Assembly (NCBI RefSeq): GCF_020405205.1
Contig: NZ_CP084469.1
Coordinates: 186,001-250,000, forward strand
DNA from: Natrinema salinisoli
GTDB lineage: Archaea; Halobacteriota; Halobacteria; Halobacteriales; Natrialbaceae
Direction: 5' to 3'
DNA: 64,000 nt
Below the pieces are notes generated by a model that was not told where the DNA came from, did no database searches, and saw only the letters and a list, made by a program, of their open reading frames with translations. The translations under genes and the position numbers were made by a program. The stretch's first letter is position 1. Each line of letters begins with the position of its first letter. This document shows positions 24,361-34,466 of this stretch, one piece after another.

Positions 24361-24575
24361 TTGATTGTTCCGGCCGTGCAGCGACTTCCACCCCTGAAGC
24401 GACGACCGCTGGCCGACCAACTCCGTCTCATCACCGGATTTTGTCCGGCGTGGGTCGCGTGATTACATTTATAATTTCGATCATGGGTCCGTCTTAACCG
24501 AACAGTCCGTTCAGGTTCGGCAACTCTCGTTGTCCTACTCCAACTCTACATGGGCAATCGCAGTTGTTCTACACC

Positions 24576-24591
24576 AAACAAAATTGTTTTA
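24576..24591 (+). promoter_or_regulatory. TATA-overlapping palindrome before the cbiT operon
   Basis: AAACAA-AA-TTGTTT (24576-24589) is a perfect inverted repeat overlapping the TATA-like TTTTA (24587-24591), which lies about 25 bases before the cbiT ATG. A protein on this site would block initiation, so it is a candidate operator for the B12 operon. A second, weaker repeat, CCGAAC...GTTCGG, lies at about 24499-24521. Confidence 0.5.
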
Positions 24592-24613
24592 GGGCCGGGC
24601 TCTGTTCCAACGG

Positions 24614-25231
24614 ATGATGCCACCCATCGCGCTTCCACACGATGCGAAGGCCGGACCGACCAAGTCGGAGGTCCGCGCCGTCGTCCGCTCGAAGCTCGCG
24701 CTCGAGCCGGACGACCACTTCGCGGAGGTCGGCTCCTGTACCGGAGCCATCACGATCGAGGCCGCACAGCGGGCCGGACGGGTGACCGCTCTCGAGCGGA
24801 AACCCGAGCGACTCGAGACGACGGAGCGGAACCTCGCCGCGAACGAGGAGTCGGTACGGGCCGACGTCGAACTGCGAAACGCGGAAGCACCCGAGGGGCT
24901 GCCCGACGACGCCGACGCGCTCTTCCTGGGCGGAAGCCGGAACTTCGAGGCGGTACTCGATCACGCCGTCGAGACCGAAATCGACCGCGTGATCATGAAC
25001 GTCTCGCGGCTCGAGGTCGCCGGGAAGGCGACGGAGGCCTTCCGCGAGCGGGACTTGCTCGAGGAGGTCGTCCAGTTCCAGGTGAGCCACGGCTACGAGC
25101 TCGCCGGGGCGACGAGTTTCAACTCGGACAACCCGGTGTACATGCTGGTCGGGAGCGCGACGCCCGACGAGGAGACTGCGGAAGACGACGGCGAGCGAGT
25201 CGCCGCGGACGGGGGGAGCGCCGCCCAATGA
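24614..25231 (+). CDS. cbiT: Cobalt-precorrin-6B (C15)-methyltransferase, decarboxylating
   Basis: 205 residues, Rossmann methyltransferase. The CbiT signatures are LPHDAKAGPTKSEVRAVVRS, the SAM motif FAEVGSCTGAITIEAAQ and the post-II strand ALFLGGSRN. It methylates C15 and decarboxylates the C12 acetate. It is the first gene of the main B12 operon and shares ATGA with cbiL. A second in-frame ATG follows immediately. The acidic C-terminal tail (about 25 residues) is low-complexity. Confidence 0.93.
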   Translation: MMPPIALPHDAKAGPTKSEVRAVVRSKLALEPDDHFAEVGSCTGAITIEAAQRAGRVTALERKPERLETTERNLAANEESVRADVELRNAEAPEGLPDDADALFLGGSRNFEAVLDHAVETEIDRVIMNVSRLEVAGKATEAFRERDLLEEVVQFQVSHGYELAGATSFNSDNPVYMLVGSATPDEETAEDDGERVAADGGSAAQ

Positions 25232-26058
25232 CGCTCTACGGCGTCGGCCTCGGCCCCGGCGAGGCCGACCTCGTCACGGTACGCGGGAAGGAGGTCCTCG
25301 AGAACGCAGACGTGGTCTACTCGCCGGGCCGCCTCTCCCGGACGGTCGCGTTGAAACACGTCGACGAGTCGAAAATCGGGGATCTAGACTTCCCCATGAC
25401 GAAAGACGAGGAGAAGCTGCGAACGGCGTGGAAGGAGGCGGCCGCAGAGATTGCCCCGAACGCACGCGACGGCGACGTCGCCTTCGTCACGCTGGGCGAT
25501 CCGAACGTCTACTCGACGTTCGGTCACCTCCGACGGACGATCGACGCCTTTCATTCGGACGTCGAACTGGAGATCGTTCCCGGCGTGAGCGCGGTGACGG
25601 CCTTCGCGACCGCGATGGGGGTCGAGATCGAAGCCGGCGCGGGGCTCTCCTTGCGGGAGGCCGCGTCCGGCCACAGCCCGACCGGCCCGGACCGGATGAT
25701 CCTATTCAAGGTCACCGACGCACCGGCGACCCACGAGGGCCTCGTCGAGGCCGGCTACGACGTGACCTACGGCCGCCGGCTGTTCATGGAACAGGGCGAG
25801 ACGATCGTCACCGACGACCCCGAGGAGATCGACGAGCGCGATTACTACACGCTCGCGTACGCCGAGAAGGAAGACCTCGAGGTCGAGCAGGCGACGGCGG
25901 CCTTCGAAACCGACGGCAGCGATTCCGAAACGTCGGGCGAGGACGACTCGACGGCGAACGGTGAGCCGGTGACCGACGGAGGGAAGCGAGTCGACCTCGA
26001 GCACGCTGAAGGTTGCGAGGGCGGCGACTGTGGCGGACACCGCGGAGGACACCGATGA
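25228..26058 (+). CDS. cbiL: Cobalt-factor II C20-methyltransferase with Cys/His-rich tail
   Basis: 276 residues from the ATG overlapping the cbiT stop. LYGVGLGPGEADLVTVRGKE, VVYSPGRLS and ALGDPNVYSTF-like VTLGDPNVYSTFGHLRR are classic CbiL/CobI motifs, followed by IVPGVSAVTAFATAMGV. It adds the C20 methyl group to cobalt-factor II. After the enzyme core (ends near residue 230) comes an acidic linker and a tail EGCEGGDCGGHRGGHR with two Cys and two His, a plausible metal-binding extension not needed for catalysis. It overlaps cbiF by ATGA. Confidence 0.94.
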   Translation: MTLYGVGLGPGEADLVTVRGKEVLENADVVYSPGRLSRTVALKHVDESKIGDLDFPMTKDEEKLRTAWKEAAAEIAPNARDGDVAFVTLGDPNVYSTFGHLRRTIDAFHSDVELEIVPGVSAVTAFATAMGVEIEAGAGLSLREAASGHSPTGPDRMILFKVTDAPATHEGLVEAGYDVTYGRRLFMEQGETIVTDDPEEIDERDYYTLAYAEKEDLEVEQATAAFETDGSDSETSGEDDSTANGEPVTDGGKRVDLEHAEGCEGGDCGGHRGGHR

Positions 26059-26954
26059 CTGACGACGAGACACCCAACGACCCGCAGGACGCGATCGACT
26101 CCCAGGGCGAAGCTCGCCGCGAGGAACTGGACGACCGGATCTTCGAGCACAGCGCCGGGGACGAACAGGAGGGCATTCCCTTCGTCGGCGCCGGCCCCGG
26201 CAACCCGCGCCTGCTGACCGTGGCGGGGAAGGAACTGCTCGAGGAGGCCGACCTCGTCGTTCACGCGGGCTCGCTGGTCAACAGCGAACTGCTGGACGAG
26301 TACTGCAGCCACGCCGAACTGGTGAACTCCGTCGGGAAGGACCTCGAGGAACTGATCCCGCTGATGCGGGACGCCTACGAGGACGGCGACAACGTCGTCC
26401 GCCTGCACAGCGGCGATCCCGCGATTTACGGCGCAGCACTCGAGCAGATGGACGCGCTGGAGCACGAGGGCGTGCCGACCCACTTCGTTCCCGGCGTCAC
26501 CTCGGCGTTCGCGGCCAGCGCGACGCTGCGGACCCAACTGACGCTCAACGAGGTCTCGAATCACGTCGCCTTCACCCGACCGCAGGGCAAGACCCTGACG
26601 CCCGAGGAGGACCACATCTCCGACTTCGTGGAGATGGGCGACGTGACGACCTGCATCTATCTCGGGACCCACGCGGTTCGGGACACGATGGATCGGTTGC
26701 TCGAGGACGACCACGACCCCGAGACGCCGGTCGCGGTGATCTACCACGCCTCGTGGCCGGACGAGGACGTGATCATCGGCTCGATCGGCGACATCGCGGA
26801 CAAGGTCGAGGAGGCGGGCTACCGCGCCTCGGCGCTGGTCGTCATCGGTGATGCCGTGACCGGCGCGGGCTACGAGCGCTCGTTCCTCTACGGCGACTGG
26901 GCCAATCGGGGATCGTCGGGAGAGTCCGGCGAGACGGAGGCGAGTGATGACTGA
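26055..26954 (+). CDS. cbiF: Cobalt-precorrin-4 C11-methyltransferase
   Basis: 299 residues. An acidic N-terminal extension (about 38 residues) precedes PFVGAGPGNPRLLTVAGKEL, DLVVHAGSLVN, the SAM loop RLHSGDPAIYGA and FVPGVTSAFAASATL, all CbiF/CobM motifs. It methylates C11 of cobalt-precorrin-4. ATG at 26055 is chosen because it overlaps the cbiL stop; an upstream in-frame Met would translate Arg-rich shadow sequence. A one-base gap separates its stop from the next small ORF. Confidence 0.94.
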   Translation: MTDDETPNDPQDAIDSQGEARREELDDRIFEHSAGDEQEGIPFVGAGPGNPRLLTVAGKELLEEADLVVHAGSLVNSELLDEYCSHAELVNSVGKDLEELIPLMRDAYEDGDNVVRLHSGDPAIYGAALEQMDALEHEGVPTHFVPGVTSAFAASATLRTQLTLNEVSNHVAFTRPQGKTLTPEEDHISDFVEMGDVTTCIYLGTHAVRDTMDRLLEDDHDPETPVAVIYHASWPDEDVIIGSIGDIADKVEEAGYRASALVVIGDAVTGAGYERSFLYGDWANRGSSGESGETEASDD

Positions 26955-26955
26955 G

Positions 26956-27084
26956 ATGGCTCGAAGTCGCTACCGCGAACACGGTGAAAGCCCCCAGCCC
27001 TTTCAATCCCACCCGAGCGGTGGACTGGACGGGTCGATCGAACGTGGAACGGACAATTTCGGTACGACAGCAATCAACCAATGA
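26956..27084 (+). CDS. Possible 42-residue ORF, or repeat-derived spacer, between cbiF and cbiG
   Basis: The frame starts one base after the cbiF stop (MARSRYREHGESPQPFQSHP...) and ends with TGA overlapping the cbiG ATG, an exact operon fit. However, by count only about 57% of third positions are G or C, far below the neighbours, and the product is not acidic. The segment GGTGAAAGCCCCCAGCCC (about 26987-27004) looks like a dispersed intergenic motif I recall vaguely from haloarchaea, so this may be inserted repeat DNA that keeps translational coupling. Confidence 0.35.
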   Translation: MARSRYREHGESPQPFQSHPSGGLDGSIERGTDNFGTTAINQ

Positions 27085-28079
27085 GTTCAGGAACTGAGAA
27101 CGCGGACACGACGGACGAATCGGGATCGGACTCCGGCGGCGGCCACTGTTCGACGGCGGATTCGGACGGCGAAGTCGCCGAGGAGATCGCGATCATCTCC
27201 TTCGGCCGGAAGATGGACACCGCCGAGGAGATCAAAGCCGAGATCGGCGATCGCTACGAGGCGATCGACATCATCGAGTACCACGGCGACGTCTTCGAGG
27301 AGCATTGGGGCGAGTACGACTGCTTCATCGGCCTGATGGCCTCCGGGATCGCGATGCGGAAGACGGCCCACCTGCTCGACGACAAGTGGGAGGATCCCGC
27401 GATCTGCGTCGTCGACGAGGAACTGACGTGGGCCATCCCGATCACGGGCGGCCACCACGGTGCGAACCAGGTCGCACAGGATCTTGCGACGATGGGGGCC
27501 GTCCCGGCGATGACCACCGCCAGCGAGGCGGCGGGCAAGCAGGGCGTCGAGTCCCGCGCGAAGGCGATGGACACCCACGTCGTCAACGGCGACTCGACGG
27601 TCAAGACGAACCTCGCCGTCCTCGACGAGAACCTCGGTCCCGTGGCCCGGCTCGACGGGCCGAAAGCCGTCCTCGTCGGCGACGACGTGACGGTTCTCAA
27701 GCGCAACAAGGACGACGGGATCGTCCTCGGCACCGGTAGCGTCTCCGGTGCGAGCAAAGAGGCCTTCCTCGCGGCCTGGGAAGAAGCCCTCGAGCAGACC
27801 GATTACGACGTCGACGACGTCGAGTTCGTCGGGACCGCGACCCGGAAAGAGGACGAGGAGGGGCTGCTCGAGGCCGCCCAGGAACTCGACCTCGGCGTGG
27901 TCGCCTTCGACAAGGAGACGCTGCTCGAACACGAGGGGCCGACGCCCTCGAAGTCGAAGGAGCTGATCGGCTGGCCCGGCGTCTCCGAGGCCTCCGCGAT
28001 CGCGGGCGGTGCCGAACGGGAACTGGTCCTCGAGAAGATCAGTTACGAGAACGAAGTCACGGTGGCGATCGGTCGATGA
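27081..28079 (+). CDS. cbiG: Cobalt-precorrin-5A hydrolase
   Basis: 332 residues, CbiG family, with AIISFGRKMDTAEEIKAEIG near the start, DCFIGLMASGIAMRKTAHLL, ITGGHHGANQVAQDLA and the C-terminal CbiG domain (LGTGSVSGASKEAFLAAWEE, GTATRKEDEEGLLEAA, and PSKSKELIGWPGVSEASAIA). It opens the delta-lactone ring and releases the C2 unit as acetaldehyde, the step that contracts the ring in the anaerobic route. The N-terminal 35 residues are Ser/Asp-rich with GGGHCST, holding one His and one Cys. It overlaps cbiH1 by ATGA. Confidence 0.94.
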   Translation: MSSGTENADTTDESGSDSGGGHCSTADSDGEVAEEIAIISFGRKMDTAEEIKAEIGDRYEAIDIIEYHGDVFEEHWGEYDCFIGLMASGIAMRKTAHLLDDKWEDPAICVVDEELTWAIPITGGHHGANQVAQDLATMGAVPAMTTASEAAGKQGVESRAKAMDTHVVNGDSTVKTNLAVLDENLGPVARLDGPKAVLVGDDVTVLKRNKDDGIVLGTGSVSGASKEAFLAAWEEALEQTDYDVDDVEFVGTATRKEDEEGLLEAAQELDLGVVAFDKETLLEHEGPTPSKSKELIGWPGVSEASAIAGGAERELVLEKISYENEVTVAIGR

Positions 28080-28969
28080 GTTCGGACGCCGAGGCCACCG
28101 AGATGGACGCGACCGCGGACGCCGCCGGCGGCACCCCCGACGACCACGGAACCCTCTACGTCGTCGGCATCGGCCCCGGCCTGCCGGAGCACATGACCAA
28201 GCGGGCCAAGGAGGTCATCGAGTCCTCGGAGGTCGTCATCGCCTCGAGCCTCTACCAGGAGTTCCTGCGCGACGACGGCACCCTGTTGCCGGAAGCGGAG
28301 ACGGACGAGGACGGCATCGCCGTTCGAGACGACGGCTTCGAGCAGGAGATCGTCCGCTCGACGATGGGCCGGCAGATCGAACTCGCCCGCGCGGCGTTCG
28401 AATACGTCCGCGAAGGGAAGGACGTGGCTCACGTTTCCGGCGGCGATCCCTCGGTCTACGGCAAGTCCGATCTCATCTTCAAAATGGCCGAGGAGGAGGA
28501 CGCCACGGACGTTCCGATCGAGATCGTTCCCGGCCTGACGGCGGCGCTCGGCGGGTCGGCCAACGTCGGCGCGCCGCTGTGCAACGACTTCTGTACGGTC
28601 TCGCTGTCGGACAAGTGGCGCGGCTGGGACGAGATCGAGGAGAAGCTGCGGGCGGCGGCGATCAGCGACTTCGTGATCGTCCTCTACAACTGCTGGCGCA
28701 ACTACGAGAAGGCGGTCGACATCGTCCGCGAGGAGCGGACCGACGACGCCTACGTGGCCATCGTCAACGACGCCGGCCGCGCGGACGCCGGCCGAAACGG
28801 CGAGAGCCAGTTCATCACAACCCTCGGCGAGGCCGCCGACCACGACGACAAGGTGTCGGGGATGGGCACCTCGCTGATCATCGGCAACCACGAGACCGAA
28901 ACCTGGCGCAACGACGACCGAACGTACCTCGTCACCCCGCGCGGCGGGCGTGACGTCGACGACTTCTGA
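28076..28969 (+). CDS. cbiH: Cobalt-precorrin-3 C17-methyltransferase, first copy
   Basis: 297 residues, tetrapyrrole methylase fold: LYVVGIGPGLPEHMTKRAKE, VSGGDPSVYGKSDLI and IVPGLTAALGGSANVGAPLC with DFCTVSLSDKWRGWDEIEEK, as in CbiH/CobJ. It is one of two adjacent CbiH-like proteins. This copy has Cys residues in APLCNDFCT and the motif VLYNCWRNYEKA, where the second copy has ITIYNPWSRKR. The latter is the commoner CbiH form, so this copy is the more divergent one. N-terminal 25 residues are acidic. Confidence 0.88.
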   Translation: MSSDAEATEMDATADAAGGTPDDHGTLYVVGIGPGLPEHMTKRAKEVIESSEVVIASSLYQEFLRDDGTLLPEAETDEDGIAVRDDGFEQEIVRSTMGRQIELARAAFEYVREGKDVAHVSGGDPSVYGKSDLIFKMAEEEDATDVPIEIVPGLTAALGGSANVGAPLCNDFCTVSLSDKWRGWDEIEEKLRAAAISDFVIVLYNCWRNYEKAVDIVREERTDDAYVAIVNDAGRADAGRNGESQFITTLGEAADHDDKVSGMGTSLIIGNHETETWRNDDRTYLVTPRGGRDVDDF

Positions 28970-28987
28970 TACAGACGATACACAACC

Positions 28988-30031
28988 ATGAGTACGGATA
29001 CCAACGCGGACGCCGACGCCGAATCGACTTCCAAATGCGGAGCCTCCTCGAGCACGGAGAGCAGCACCAACGAGGCGAGTACCGACACCTCGAGCTCGAA
29101 GTGCGGCGCATCGAGCAGCACCGAGGACTCGAGCGGCTCCAAGTGCGGAGCCTCCTCGAGCTCCTCGTCGTCCTCGAGTAGCTGTGGTGCCTCGAGTTCC
29201 GACGACAGCGGCTCTAACGAGAAGGAGGTCGGCTCCACCGTCGACGACTTCGACGCCGAACCGGGCAAACTGAGCGCCGTCGGCCTCGGTCCCGGCCATC
29301 CGGAGGGGATAACCGACCGCGCAAAGACGGCGCTGCTCGAGGCCGACCACATCGTCGGTTACACGACCTACATCGACCTCATTCCGGACGAGATCACGGA
29401 GGAAGCCGACGAGCTGTACGACACGCCGATGTGTGGCGAAGTCTCCCGCACCGAGGAAGCCATCGACCGCGCGCTGGCGGGCAACGACGTCGCCATCGTC
29501 GGCAGCGGCGACCCCAACGTCTACGCGCTGGGCGGCCTCGCACTCGAGATCCTCGAGTCAAAGGGCGCGACGGCGTCGATGGTCGACTTCGAGGCCGTGC
29601 CGGGCGTCCCGGCGGCCCAGTCCTGTGCGGCCCGGCTGGGCGCACCGCTCGTCAACGACACCGTCTCGATCTCGCTGTCGGACCATCTCGTCCCGATGCC
29701 CGAGATCGAGTCCCGACTCCACTCCGCGGCAAAGGAGTCCTTCACGATCACGATCTACAACCCCTGGAGCCGCAAGCGCCGGGAGAACTTCGAGAAGGCC
29801 TGCGAGATCCTGCTGGCCCACCGCGACGCGGACACGCCCGTCGGCATCGTCCACGGCGCCGGCCGCGACGACGAGCAGGTGATGATCACCGAACTCGGCG
29901 AACTCGAGGAGCTCGGGGAGAGCGAGATCATCGACATGACGACGACGATCGTCGTCGGCAACGAGGAAACCTACGTCTGGGACGACCGGATGGTCACGCC
30001 GCGGGGCTACGAGACGAAGTACGACTACTGA
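28988..30031 (+). CDS. cbiH: Cobalt-precorrin-3 C17-methyltransferase, second copy, CGASSS repeats at N-terminus
   Basis: 347 residues. The core (from about residue 95) has LSAVGLGPGHPEGITDRAKT, VGYTTYIDLI, VGSGDPNVYALGGLALEI and FEAVPGVPAAQSCAARLGAP, then SLSDHLVPMPEIESRLHSAA and TIYNPWSRKRRENFEKA, typical CbiH. The first 90 residues are unusual: four CGASSS units with Cys at 17, 39, 53 and 66, separated by Ser/Thr/Asp/Glu-rich sequence including a run of ten Ser. This part is presumably disordered. It may bind or hand over cobalt, or make a redox contact, which is speculation. It lies 18 bases after the first copy. Confidence 0.92.
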   Translation: MSTDTNADADAESTSKCGASSSTESSTNEASTDTSSSKCGASSSTEDSSGSKCGASSSSSSSSSSCGASSSDDSGSNEKEVGSTVDDFDAEPGKLSAVGLGPGHPEGITDRAKTALLEADHIVGYTTYIDLIPDEITEEADELYDTPMCGEVSRTEEAIDRALAGNDVAIVGSGDPNVYALGGLALEILESKGATASMVDFEAVPGVPAAQSCAARLGAPLVNDTVSISLSDHLVPMPEIESRLHSAAKESFTITIYNPWSRKRRENFEKACEILLAHRDADTPVGIVHGAGRDDEQVMITELGELEELGESEIIDMTTTIVVGNEETYVWDDRMVTPRGYETKYDY

Positions 30032-30054: not shown

Positions 30055-30321
30055 ATGTCACGATACGAAGTTACCATCGAGAAGGACGCCTGCGACGGCA
30101 TCTTCGCCTGTCTGACCCGCGACCCGCGATTCGTCGAGGGCGAGGACGGCCTCGCGACGATCGACCCCGGCGCGGACCCGGTCTACGACTGCGAGGGCGA
30201 AGTCACTGACACCGAAGACCGGGTCGTCGCGACGTTCGACGACGACCGCATCGACGAAGCCCAGCAGGCCGCCGCGGCGTGCCCGACGGACGCGATCGTC
30301 GTCGAGGAGGTGGGCGAATGA
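30055..30321 (+). CDS. Ferredoxin-like protein in B12 operon
   Basis: 88 residues. The pattern is CDGIFAC at Cys13 and Cys19 (position 16 is Ile) and ACPTDAI at Cys76, which fits a single-cluster ferredoxin of the [3Fe-4S] type, or a [4Fe-4S] cluster with Cys46 as an unusual fourth ligand. A 30-residue acidic insertion, typical of halophilic ferredoxins, lies between. It lies between cbiH2 and the next gene, with an ATGA overlap to the latter. It could supply electrons for a B12 step such as a reductase or CbiX-type chemistry; this is inferred from position. Confidence 0.8.
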   Translation: MSRYEVTIEKDACDGIFACLTRDPRFVEGEDGLATIDPGADPVYDCEGEVTDTEDRVVATFDDDRIDEAQQAAAACPTDAIVVEEVGE

Positions 30322-31019
30322 GCGACGCGGACTCCGCGACCGAGATCGAGGTGCCGTCCGATCCGCTCGCCGGCCACGCCGCGACGGCGTACTTCTGGGG
30401 CCACGTCGCCGGCAGCGGGGACGTCTCGGACGGTAGCATCGAGGTCGTCACCAACGATGAGGAGTCGGCACAGGTGCTCGCCGCGATCGCCGGCGGCGAC
30501 CTCGAGCACGAGACGACCACCCGCGACTACGCTCACGACACGTCCATTACGCGAACCGAGGAGGAGTACACGCTCTCGATCGGCAGTGAGGACGGCGACG
30601 ATGCCGGCCTGTTGGGCCGCAGCGGCGCGCTCGGGCTTCCCGTCGACGGGCGCGGCAACTACCGCTTCGGCGCGTTCTCGAACTACGACCGAGAACTGCT
30701 CCGCGGGCTGCTCGAGGGCTGTGGAACTATCTGCTTCAAGTCCTCGAGCGGCACCGTCGGCATCTCCTTCGTCCACGACGATCGGGAGTTGCTCGAGTTC
30801 GCACAGGATTTGATAGCGGACTGCCCAATTGATGCTCCGATGGGCGACCTCTCGGAAACGTCCTCGGGCGGCTACTGGTTCGGCGTCGACGACGACGCCG
30901 CGCCCGAGTTCGGGACGTGGTTGTACGAGAACTGCGAGGAGACGGGCCTGTTCGCGCCGAGTCGGCGCCGCAAGCTCGAGCGGAGCCTCGAGCAGGCCGA
31001 GGCGTACGACGGCGAGTAG
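30318..31019 (+). CDS. Two-motif LAGLIDADG-fold-like protein in B12 operon, probably non-catalytic
   Basis: 233 residues; no function is known to me. Two halves look alike in pattern. Near residues 26-36, FWGHVAGSGDV is followed by strands and a helix (EVVTNDEESAQVLAAI). Near 127-137, LLRGLLEGCGT is followed by ISFVHDDRELLEFAQDLI. Both fit a LAGLIDADG helix followed by a saddle of strands, as in monomeric homing endonucleases and WhiA. The acidic catalytic residue before the final Gly is Ser34 in the first and Cys135 in the second, so cleavage is unlikely. A basic C-terminal helix (SRRRKLERSLEQ) may aid nucleic-acid binding. It is co-translated with the ferredoxin, 30 bases before cbiX. A regulator or RNA-binding role is inferred. 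Confidence 0.7.
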   Translation: MSDADSATEIEVPSDPLAGHAATAYFWGHVAGSGDVSDGSIEVVTNDEESAQVLAAIAGGDLEHETTTRDYAHDTSITRTEEEYTLSIGSEDGDDAGLLGRSGALGLPVDGRGNYRFGAFSNYDRELLRGLLEGCGTICFKSSSGTVGISFVHDDRELLEFAQDLIADCPIDAPMGDLSETSSGGYWFGVDDDAAPEFGTWLYENCEETGLFAPSRRRKLERSLEQAEAYDGE

Positions 31020-31049: not shown

Positions 31050-32282
31050 ATGAGCACACCCGACCAGACCACACACGCACCCGCAGCCGGGTTCGACGAC
31101 GAGGCCGTCCTCCTGATCGGCCACGGCTCCCGGCGCGAGAAGTCCAACGAACAGGTCCGCGAACTGGCCGCAGACCTCGAGTCGCGGCTGGGAATCCCGG
31201 TCGATGCCGCGTTCCTCGAGCTCGCGGAACCGGCGATCGACGAGGCGTTCGCCGAGCTCGCGCCAGTCACGTCGCAGGTGACGGTCGTCCACTGTTCGCT
31301 GTTCGCGGCGAGCCACGTCAAGAACGACGTGCCGCTCGCGATCGAGCAGGCCCGGGCCGAGCACGACCTCGAGATCAACAACGGCGCGCATCTCGGGGTC
31401 CATCCGGCTATCCTCGACCTGCTGGACGACCGCGCCGCCGCCGTCGAGCGCGAACTGGGCGTCGACCGCGAGGACGACGACGTCGCGGTCGTCGTCTGCG
31501 GACGGGGCTCGAGCGATCCCGACGCCAACGGCGACGTCCACAAGCTGGCCCGGTTGCTGTACGAGGGCCGCGAGTTCGACCGCGTCGAGGCCTCGTTCAT
31601 CGGCGTCACGGAGCCGACGCTCGAGGACACCCTCCACGGGCTCTCGAAGCACCGCCCCGACGCGGTCGTCGTGTTGCCGTACATGCTCGGCGACGGCGTC
31701 CTCACGCAGCGAGTGCGGGACTGGACAGCGGAATTCGACGAGGACTATCCGTACGTCGACGCGCTGGCCGGGGACCCGCTCGGAACCGATTCCCGACTGC
31801 TCGACGTCTTCGCCGACCGCTGGGAGGAAGCCCGCACCGAAAGCGTCGAGATGTCCTGTGACACGTGCAAGTACAAGGTCGACCTCGAGGGCTACGAGGA
31901 GGACGTCGGCGGCGCTCGAGCCATGCTTCGCGCGCTGGCCCACCAGGAGGCTCACGCCGACCGTGACGATATCGACGAGGAACCCGACAGCCACGACGCG
32001 CCCGAAAAGCACGTCGCGGTCTGTACCAACCAGACCTGCGCCAAGATGGGATCGCCGGCGGTCCTCGAGCGCCTGCGTCAAGAGGTGCGGGACTCGGAGC
32101 ACTGCGACGCCCGCATCACGCGGACGTCGTGTCTGGGACGCTGTGGCGACGGGCCGATGGTCGCGGTCTACCCCGACGGAATCTGGTACGGCGGCGTCGA
32201 GGACGACGACGCCGACCGGATCGTGGGCGACCATCTGGATCGGGATCGCATCGTGAGCGAGCTCGTCGACCAAACGTTATGA
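31050..32282 (+). CDS. cbiX: Sirohydrochlorin cobaltochelatase with C-terminal [2Fe-2S] thioredoxin-like domain
   Basis: 410 residues. The chelatase part (about 15-275) has two CbiX-type halves: VLLIGHGSRREKSNEQVREL with the metal-binding His, and VVVCGRGSSDPDANGDVHKL, then PTLEDTLHGLSKHRPDAVVV and LPYMLGDGVLTQRV. A Cys motif CDTCKYKV lies near 271. The C-terminal domain carries AVCTNQTCAKMGSPAVLERL and TSCLGRCGDGPMVAVYPDG, the four-Cys pattern of thioredoxin-like [2Fe-2S] ferredoxins. It inserts cobalt early, into sirohydrochlorin. It is the end of the continuous B12 operon. Confidence 0.92.
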   Translation: MSTPDQTTHAPAAGFDDEAVLLIGHGSRREKSNEQVRELAADLESRLGIPVDAAFLELAEPAIDEAFAELAPVTSQVTVVHCSLFAASHVKNDVPLAIEQARAEHDLEINNGAHLGVHPAILDLLDDRAAAVERELGVDREDDDVAVVVCGRGSSDPDANGDVHKLARLLYEGREFDRVEASFIGVTEPTLEDTLHGLSKHRPDAVVVLPYMLGDGVLTQRVRDWTAEFDEDYPYVDALAGDPLGTDSRLLDVFADRWEEARTESVEMSCDTCKYKVDLEGYEEDVGGARAMLRALAHQEAHADRDDIDEEPDSHDAPEKHVAVCTNQTCAKMGSPAVLERLRQEVRDSEHCDARITRTSCLGRCGDGPMVAVYPDGIWYGGVEDDDADRIVGDHLDRDRIVSELVDQTL

Positions 32283-32324: not shown

Positions 32325-32708
32325 ATGGATGGAAACAAATCGACGGCGTCGCTTGCGGCATACTACGCCATCCTCGTCGTGTTCGGTGCGATGATGCTGG
32401 TCCCGGATCCGACGGGCATGCTCAACGTCCTCGTTGCGATCGCCGCTCTCGGTATCGTCGGGGTCGCGCTGATCGACGGATCGGTTCGCGAACTGCGCCC
32501 GGGAATCGGTGCACTGTACGCGTTCGGCATCATTGCGTCGGTCGGCGTCTGGATTCTGCAGAACTACCTCTTGGCTTCCGAGGTGTACGGGACCGTCGTC
32601 GAAATCATTGCGGTACTTTCCCTCCCTGTCCTGCTCGGCACGTACCTGGTCGCCCGACATCGTGGGACCGACGGCTACCGTTCACTCGCCCATCGGACGA
32701 GGGAGTAG
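32325..32708 (+). CDS. Small four-helix membrane protein
   Basis: 127 residues with about four hydrophobic segments (AYYAILVVFGAMMLV, VLVAIAALGIVGVALI, ALYAFGIIASVGVWIL, VVEIIAVLSLPVLLGTYLVA). No family was recognised. It lies 42 bases after cbiX on the same strand, so it may be in the operon or have its own promoter; nothing else ties it to B12. C-terminal RHRGTDGYRSLAHRTRE is cytoplasmic by the positive-inside rule. Confidence 0.65.
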   Translation: MDGNKSTASLAAYYAILVVFGAMMLVPDPTGMLNVLVAIAALGIVGVALIDGSVRELRPGIGALYAFGIIASVGVWILQNYLLASEVYGTVVEIIAVLSLPVLLGTYLVARHRGTDGYRSLAHRTRE

Positions 32709-32796: not shown

Positions 32797-33168
32797 ATGA
32801 GCTGTTACGAAATCGAAGCGCTACGACTCGGACTGATGAACGTCCTCGGCGTCGGGGACGACAGCACCCGCGATCACGCGGAGAAAGAACTCGAGGGCCA
32901 TCTCGAGGGCCCCATCCAGGGCCTCGCGGAGGCCGACAGCCTCGCGGAGATCGAGCGCCACCTCGATGCGGCGCTGGTCGATCTCGAGGAGGAAGTCGCC
33001 GCAATGGACAGCGACGACCCCGAGTACGATTACACGCGGGGACGACTACTGGCGGTCCGCGATGCCGAGCGAGCGGTCCAGCGACTGAGCGTGCAGGGCG
33101 AGAGCATCGTGGACGGGCTCGGCGACGCGCACGACACCCTCCACGAGACCTTTCCGGTAGAGGAGTAA
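32797..33168 (+). CDS. DUF3209 family protein of B12 cluster
   Basis: 123 residues, helical. MSCYEIEALRLGLMNVLGVG followed by DSTRDHAEKELEGH matches DUF3209, a family I recall next to B12 or chelatase genes in haloarchaea. It has one Cys at position 3 and several Glu/His (EIERHLDAAL). It is cytoplasmic and its stop is two bases before the next ATG, so it is co-translated with the beta-propeller protein. Function is unknown; the pairing suggests a role in the same pathway. Confidence 0.82.
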   Translation: MSCYEIEALRLGLMNVLGVGDDSTRDHAEKELEGHLEGPIQGLAEADSLAEIERHLDAALVDLEEEVAAMDSDDPEYDYTRGRLLAVRDAERAVQRLSVQGESIVDGLGDAHDTLHETFPVEE

Positions 33169-33170
33169 TC

Positions 33171-34466
33171 ATGGCCGACACTGCCGATACCGAACGCGAC
33201 CTGCCCCTCGAGTTCCGATCGGTCCCGCTCGGCGAGATCGAGACGGCCCGGAGTCGTCACATGTGGACCCGATCCGCGGTCAGCGTGGCCGACTCTGGCG
33301 ACCTCGTCGTGACCGGCCAGTGGGACGGGACGGTCACCGCCCGCGACGCCGACTCGCTCGAGACGCGGTGGACGGTCGATCACCCGGACCACGCGGTCGG
33401 AATCACGTCGCTCTCGAACGACGGTGAAGACGGCAGCGACGAGACGGTCGTCGTCGCCGGACGCGGCGAAACCGGAACGATCGCGGCCTACGACGCCGAG
33501 ACGGGCGACCGGCGCTGGCGGTACGACACCGTCGACGACGTGGGCGAGGCGGTCAAGGACACCGTCTTCTACCTGCCCTACGTGGTCGCGCTCGAGACGG
33601 GCACCGACGCGGACGGTACCGAACGACTCTACGCCGCCGCACGACGGTACGAACGCGACGGCGACCACCGCCAGTGGCACAGCACCGTCTACGCGTTCGA
33701 CCCCGACGGATCGGTCCGCTGGACCGACGAGACCGACGCCTCGCCGATCGCGATCGATCTCGACGCCGACGGCGAGCGCCTCGCGGTCGGCTACAACCGC
33801 TGTATGGGCGACCACGACACCGGCCTCGTGGTGCTCGAGGCCGAGTCGGGCGACCGACTGTGGAGCTGGGATCCCGGCACGGAGGGAGATCGCCGCGTCG
33901 GCGACGTCTCCTTCGACGGTGAGTCGATCGCCGTCTCGAGTCACGGGGACAAGCGCGGGTACCTGCTCGGCCCCGGTGGTGCCGAGCGCTGGCGCGTCGA
34001 CCTCGCAGTCGAGACCGAAATCGATGACGAGACCCTGTACGCCTATCCGAACCACGTCTACACGAACGACAGTCGCGTGGCGTTCGTGACCGGCAACACC
34101 TACGCGGTAGAGAGCCGCGAGACCGAGAGCCGACACCCGAACGAACACCGGGTCGCCGCGTTCGATGCGGACGGTGACCTCATCTGGGACGACGAGGTTC
34201 GGGGCTTCGTTCACGGCCTCGCCGCCGACGGCGGGCGACTCGTCGCGCCCTGCGCCCAGAACTTCCGGGTCCGTGATCCGGATACTCACGCCGTCCGCTG
34301 GTTCGACCTCGAGTCAGGCGCGAGCGGGTGCGAGCGCCTCGACGGGATCGCGACGGCGGCCGCCGTCGAAGAGGGAACGGTTGCTGCCATCGAGGAACCC
34401 GTCGAGTACCACGACGAGGGCCAGACGCGCGGCGAGTACGCGCTTCGCGTCGGCTCGCTCGAGTAG
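33171..34466 (+). CDS. Cytoplasmic PQQ/WD-like beta-propeller protein next to DUF3209
   Basis: 431 residues, no signal peptide. Propeller repeats are visible: VSVADSGDLVVTGQWDGTVT, VVVAGRGETGTIAAYDAETG, ...TVYAFDPDGSVRWTDETD, ...LVVLEAESGDRLWSWDPG. Blade-closing Trp and ADxxG turns recur. Start ATG at 33171 follows the DUF3209 stop by two bases. It differs from the exported paralogue at 5687-7033 in lacking a Tat signal. It may act as a scaffold in the B12 gene set; no catalytic residues were seen. A weak T-run (TTTTCTCT, 34483 on) after the stop may end transcription. Confidence 0.82.
   Translation: MADTADTERDLPLEFRSVPLGEIETARSRHMWTRSAVSVADSGDLVVTGQWDGTVTARDADSLETRWTVDHPDHAVGITSLSNDGEDGSDETVVVAGRGETGTIAAYDAETGDRRWRYDTVDDVGEAVKDTVFYLPYVVALETGTDADGTERLYAAARRYERDGDHRQWHSTVYAFDPDGSVRWTDETDASPIAIDLDADGERLAVGYNRCMGDHDTGLVVLEAESGDRLWSWDPGTEGDRRVGDVSFDGESIAVSSHGDKRGYLLGPGGAERWRVDLAVETEIDDETLYAYPNHVYTNDSRVAFVTGNTYAVESRETESRHPNEHRVAAFDADGDLIWDDEVRGFVHGLAADGGRLVAPCAQNFRVRDPDTHAVRWFDLESGASGCERLDGIATAAAVEEGTVAAIEEPVEYHDEGQTRGEYALRVGSLE

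Follow-up and report, generated by a model that had tools for sequence, protein, structure and literature searches.

LAG in the cobalamin operon

Why does a haloarchaeal cobalamin operon carry a gene for a LAGLIDADG-fold protein, and what might that protein do there? The gene, termed LAG, was analyzed within the whole 64-kb stretch of DNA considered here (the window), which comes from a Natrinema-type haloarchaeon. It encodes a domesticated LAGLIDADG-fold protein of 233 aa (30318-31019, + strand, stop codon included), and the operon genes listed in this section, like the cbiT palindrome described below, lie on the same strand. Its ATG overlaps the stop codon of a ferredoxin gene (Fer4_15 in Pfam, 30055-30321) in an ATGA. 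The next gene is cbiX (31050-32282), which encodes the cobaltochelatase CbiX with a C-terminal 2Fe-2S thioredoxin-like domain at about 32001-32225. The genes cbiT, cbiL, cbiF, cbiG, cbiH1, and cbiH2 lie upstream in the same operon (24614-30031). Downstream are a gene for a DUF3209 protein that is co-inherited with LAG (32797-33168) and a PQQ-type beta-propeller gene of the cobalamin cluster (33171-34466). The operon order is cbiT-L-F-G-H1-H2-ferredoxin-LAG-cbiX-DUF3209-propeller. The RefSeq labels for LAG are 'hypothetical' or 'cobalamin biosynthesis protein'. The gene belongs to the operon of a central cofactor pathway and is conserved in the haloarchaea that make corrin de novo.

LAGLIDADG homology and fold

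Judged by eye on LAG alone, the LAGLIDADG resemblance is weak. The Pfam LAGLIDADG_3 profile matched residues 123-166 with E = 0.0094 and 16.6 bits, below the cut-off of 22.5 bits. No match for LAG was found in NCBIfam, and a PDB sequence search with the LAG family profile returned nothing up to E = 10. The same Pfam profile matched 21 of 40 LAG homologues, with a best E-value of 2.7e-5. The family profile was aligned by hhalign to archaeal intein endonuclease domains found by PF14528, and the alignment covered 190 columns with E = 3e-7, the value for that single profile comparison. The score of 54.6 compared with a maximum of 0.98 among 60 column-shuffled controls and with 15.7 for the reversed profile. 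Both LAGLIDADG motifs and the C-terminal helix of LAG were included in this alignment.

The AlphaFold (AF2) model of LAG had a pLDDT of 89.5 and a pTM of 0.87. All 28 PDB fold matches of this model at E ≤ 1e-3 were LAGLIDADG proteins, led by I-Tsp061I (2dch, 1.1e-6) and WhiA (3hyi, 4.0e-6); the TM-scores against solved structures were moderate, at 0.4-0.6. Among predicted viral structures, the named matches were mostly endonucleases, inteins, or kinds of protein that often carry inteins. The most divergent homologue, a 38%-identical protein from genome G034, also gave a confident AlphaFold model, with I-DmoI and WhiA as its best matches. The profile alignment between the N-half and the C-half of LAG was not significant (E = 0.098), so the internal repeat is visible in the fold and absent from the sequence.

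Fold and profile homology therefore show that LAG descends from LAGLIDADG endonuclease domains. The first-pass annotation had described two LAGLIDADG halves and a parallel to WhiA. Both points were borne out: the halves, each alpha-beta-beta-alpha-beta-beta with a LAGLIDADG helix, by the AlphaFold model, the PDB fold matches, and the profile alignment, with both modelled members matching LAGLIDADG structures and the homologues carrying the signal over both motifs, and the parallel by WhiA as the second-best PDB match.

Catalytic positions and conserved cysteines

Both nine-residue motifs of LAG align to LAGLIDADG without gaps. Motif 1, FWGHVAGSG, comprises residues 26-34 (30393-30419) and places Ser33 at the catalytic position; motif 2, LRGLLEGCG, comprises residues 128-136 (30699-30725) and places Cys135 there. 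In homing endonucleases each motif ends in an acidic residue, and LAG has none at either. The replaced acids had been given as Ser34 and Cys135 in the first-pass annotation; Cys135 is correct, and the first position is Ser33.

Position 33 varied among the 40 homologues (Ser in 18, Asp in 13, Asn in 3, Gly in 3, Ala in 2, and one gap). On the family tree, Asp33 was common outside LAG's own clade and Ser was nearly fixed inside it; position 33 switched between Asp and another residue at least five times. Position 135 was Cys in 39 homologues and Ala in one, L080 of Halorubrum lacusprofundi, so Cys135 is not strictly required. The motif 2 acid was absent from all 40 members. Cys139 (codon at 30732-30734) was present in all 40, which gives a conserved CxxxC after motif 2. 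Judging from these residue patterns at positions 33 and 135, nuclease activity is very unlikely in any family member, and a different kind of metal site is conceivable. The invariant His73 was considered for such a site and rejected, because predicted secondary structure places it in the turn between beta3 and beta4, at a distance from Cys135.

Comparison with known LAGLIDADG proteins

Domesticated LAGLIDADG proteins are rare, with WhiA and yeast HO as examples, and the known ones act on DNA. The LAGLIDADG_3 domains of inteins (DOD-type) align with LAG end to end, over both halves and the C-terminal K..LE helix. Unlike inteins, LAG has no splicing domain, has lost the catalytic acids, and is a stand-alone operon gene; its C-half beta3-4 hairpin is short and has no basic residues. 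No Hint (splicing) domain was detected in Pfam scans of LAG and its homologues, which are stand-alone ORFs.

WhiA (DUF199; 3hyi from T. maritima and 8dy7 from S. venezuelae) accounted for PDB matches 2, 4, 6, and 12 of LAG. LAG and WhiA are both host genes for a single-chain fold with two LAGLIDADG motifs, and WhiA itself has no nuclease function. LAG differs from WhiA in being archaeal, in its location in a metabolic operon, in its lack of a C-terminal HTH, and in the CxxxC after motif 2. The archaeal, intron-encoded enzymes I-Tsp061I and I-DmoI share the monomeric two-motif fold and were the top PDB matches of the two modelled members (2dch for LAG and 2vs8 for the G034 homologue). These enzymes cut DNA with acids at both motifs, whereas LAG has neither the acids nor a basic saddle.

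The LAGLIDADG origin of LAG appears to be unreported. The archaeal lineage, the cbi operon setting, the absence of an HTH, and the Asp-to-Cys change were likewise not found in the literature searched, which lay largely outside subscription journals.

Distribution and selection

In a profile search of 393 genomes of the phylum, LAG was confined to this haloarchaeal order. Within the order, LAG was present in 110 of 243 genomes and CbiG_N in 115. Both occurred in 109 genomes, LAG without CbiG in 1, CbiG without LAG in 6, and neither in 127 (Fisher p = 1.5e-60, with shared ancestry ignored). The single genome with LAG only had it at a contig edge, and one of the six with CbiG only, G140, was cut off by a contig end. 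LAG thus tracks de novo corrin synthesis, with cbiG in 109 of its 110 carriers. Its slot between ferredoxin and CbiX is nearly invariant, and the gene adjoins cbiX in nearly all of the haloarchaeal cbi clusters that were compared.

Pairwise dN/dS between LAG and its relatives was 0.09-0.20, which indicates purifying selection. Together with the fold, the lost acids, and the upkeep of the gene alongside corrin synthesis, this supports the reading of LAG as a domesticated LAGLIDADG protein. No LAG relative was found in viral contigs.

CbiX forms and a possible role in cobalt insertion

All LAG-containing loci that include CbiX have its 2Fe-2S form. Four LAG-less clusters (L126-L129, in genomes G033, G035, G061, and G201) also lack the ferredoxin, DUF3209, and propeller genes, and their CbiX has no 2Fe-2S domain but a long, His-rich C-terminal tail, which was read in L126 (L126:11472-12314), L127, and L129. 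In a fifth cluster, L125 of genome G131, only LAG is missing; the ferredoxin, DUF3209, and 2Fe-2S CbiX are kept, and the LAG slot is filled by an additional, His-tailed CbiX (L125:11711-12571). Haloarchaeal CbiX therefore occurs in two forms, 2Fe-2S and His-tailed, split by the presence of LAG, ferredoxin, and DUF3209, with both forms in L125. On a CbiG tree with long branches, the LAG-less states of L126-L129 and of G131 were two separate events.

In genome G034, the cbi cluster is dispersed and the 38%-identical LAG lies away from it, in a tight operon (L075:6445-9454, - strand) of a cation-efflux transporter, LAG, a rhodanese, and a second cation-efflux transporter. CbiX in this genome is still of the 2Fe-2S type. 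The contexts of L126-L129, G131, and G034 point to cobalt or metal handling. In bacterial CbiX-L, cobalt insertion does not require the extension with His-rich and Fe-S parts, whose His-rich part was proposed to serve as a metal store and delivery element (PMC7689651). The His-rich tail occupies the same genomic niche as LAG, both in the LAG-less clusters and as part of the CbiX found at the LAG position of G131. The tail is of low complexity, unlike the folded LAG protein, and their equivalence is one that we infer.

On this comparative evidence, we tentatively propose that LAG is an accessory of cobalt insertion that works with CbiX through a metal site rebuilt at the helix junction. A stand-alone LAGLIDADG endonuclease domain of the intein/DOD type would have been captured into the haloarchaeal cbi operon, would then have lost both the nuclease residues and the surface that binds DNA, and would have turned into a conserved auxiliary factor for making corrin de novo. 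LAG might partner CbiX by holding or delivering Co2+, and so do the job of the His-rich CbiX tail found in LAG-less clusters. The ancestral metal site where the two LAGLIDADG helices meet (position 33 and Cys135) would, together with Cys139, form the binding site. The first-pass annotation also suggested that LAG binds cobalamin intermediates, which it may do, although the comparative evidence leans to cobalt handling beside CbiX. The more specific proposal, that the endonuclease metal site was rebuilt by the Asp-to-Cys change and the new Cys to hold cobalt for CbiX, with no nucleic acid role left, is possible but doubtful. If true, it would make LAG a LAGLIDADG protein whose function has left nucleic acid altogether.

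The conservation of Cys135 (39/40) and Cys139 (40/40) favors a cobalt role. Against it stand the variability of position 33 (Asp, Ser, Asn, Gly, or Ala), the replacement of Cys135 by Ala in L080, and the number of known independent LAG-less events, which is just two. The swap in G131 could also be a chance insertion, because that genome keeps its 2Fe-2S CbiX as well. The transporter operon of G034 is the only one of its kind and comes from a fragmented genome, and the substrate of cation-efflux proteins is not necessarily cobalt.

Electron transfer as an alternative role

LAG and the ferredoxin could instead serve electron transfer or Fe-S assembly, with LAG itself binding no free cobalt and acting as a scaffold or redox partner for the CbiX 2Fe-2S domain or for a corrin reduction step. 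In cbi clusters, LAG, ferredoxin, DUF3209, and the 2Fe-2S domain of CbiX tend to occur as a set or to be missing as a set, and the CxxxC after motif 2 is conserved, both of which fit such a role. However, G131 has the ferredoxin, DUF3209, and 2Fe-2S CbiX with no LAG, and LAG has just two conserved cysteines, one of which is replaced in L080. We regard this alternative as unlikely.

DNA-binding surface and the cbiT palindrome

LAG might also be a WhiA-like regulator that binds cbi DNA or RNA through its saddle and perhaps senses cobalt or a corrinoid; the first-pass annotation had suggested that it binds B12-gene DNA or RNA. The WhiA fold is shared, the C-terminal helix of LAG is basic (SRRRKL, with Arg216 and Lys219 invariant), and autoregulation is frequent among operon genes. 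Moreover, in one study the homing-endonuclease domain of a Mycoplasma WhiA was modelled in contact with an auxiliary DNA motif (PMC11701221).

The saddle itself argues otherwise. Its charge, taken as a K/R count from sequence and not as electrostatics, was 0 in the C-half beta3-4 of LAG, with a family mean of 0.2, against 5-10 in inteins, haloarchaeal ones included. The N-half of LAG has 2 K/R against 14 D/E. By this count, LAG does not have the basic DNA-contacting beta saddle of a homing endonuclease. No WhiA family or HTH match was found in LAG or its homologues with Pfam or NCBIfam, and in the LAG model the C half is followed by one long C-terminal helix. In WhiA, the HTH domain is the part that reads the core site.

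An operator-like palindrome precedes cbiT (24575-24592). Its sequence here, CAAACAAAATTGTTTTA, occurs just once in the genome when up to 3 mismatches are allowed, and it is conserved in nearly all loci that include the region upstream of cbiT. Five LAG-less clusters keep the palindrome with a closely similar core. It is also present in G034, but no such site was found in the stretch of that genome's LAG operon. The binder of the palindrome is thus independent of LAG. No riboswitch or other RNA was detected by Rfam over the 64-kb window at gathering scores. Since the palindrome persists without LAG, the saddle charge is lost, and an HTH is missing, the suggestion of DNA or RNA binding is not upheld, and a regulatory role is rather improbable, though LAG might still bind a different site or RNA.

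The CbiD/CbiJ gap and other alternatives

Haloarchaeal B12 synthesis has two consecutive pathway gaps, CbiD and CbiJ, according to PMC8305020, and LAG bears on the question of which unassigned haloarchaeal B12 genes fill them. Four unassigned cluster genes of Haloferax volcanii, HVO_B0055 included, are proposed there as gap candidates. HVO_B0055 is listed as 'function unassigned', with no LAGLIDADG assignment in the main text. It lies between HVO_B0056 and cbiX1 (HVO_B0054), and on gene order alone it should belong to the LAG family.

In our survey, CbiD was absent in all 243 genomes of the order and CbiJ had no match above the cut-off in any of them, and neither family matched the LAG protein or any other protein of its genome. 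The two gaps are thus order-wide, though CbiG occurs in 115 genomes.

LAG could then be the missing CbiD methyltransferase or CbiJ reductase, as the order-wide gaps, the place of HVO_B0055 among the named candidates, and the tight LAG-CbiG co-occurrence would allow. However, LAG has no match to a SAM- or NAD(P)H-binding family, and its fold is unlike that of any known methyltransferase or reductase. In addition, the four clusters L126-L129 carry the other cbi genes without LAG, ferredoxin, DUF3209, or propeller, in genomes that also lack CbiD and CbiJ. LAG is therefore probably not the missing enzyme, unless the LAG-less lineages solved these steps separately or leave the pathway incomplete, and we consider this role quite improbable. 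These results suggest that LAG and its companions belong to cobalt insertion rather than to the CbiD/CbiJ gap.

LAG can hardly be a homing endonuclease of recent origin or one that is still active, or an inert remnant of such an enzyme, despite the homology to intein endonucleases and the retention of Asp33 in 13 of 40 members, given a motif 2 acid missing in 40/40, a dN/dS of 0.09-0.20, an operon position nearly fixed in haloarchaea, no intron or intein context, and no relative in viral contigs.

Other members of the cobalamin clusters

Between cbiX and DUF3209, a small hydrophobic, probably membrane protein is encoded at 32325-32708; it was present in just two other compared loci (L001 and L003). 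The PQQ-type beta-propeller also belongs regularly to the cobalamin cluster, and in the split cluster of G034 it stays beside the ferredoxin (L131:6161-7462). In genome G080, the CbiG near LAG (L078) is strongly diverged (40%), and there is a second partial cbi cluster (L136) with its own CbiG and ferredoxin, which suggests cluster decay and replacement.
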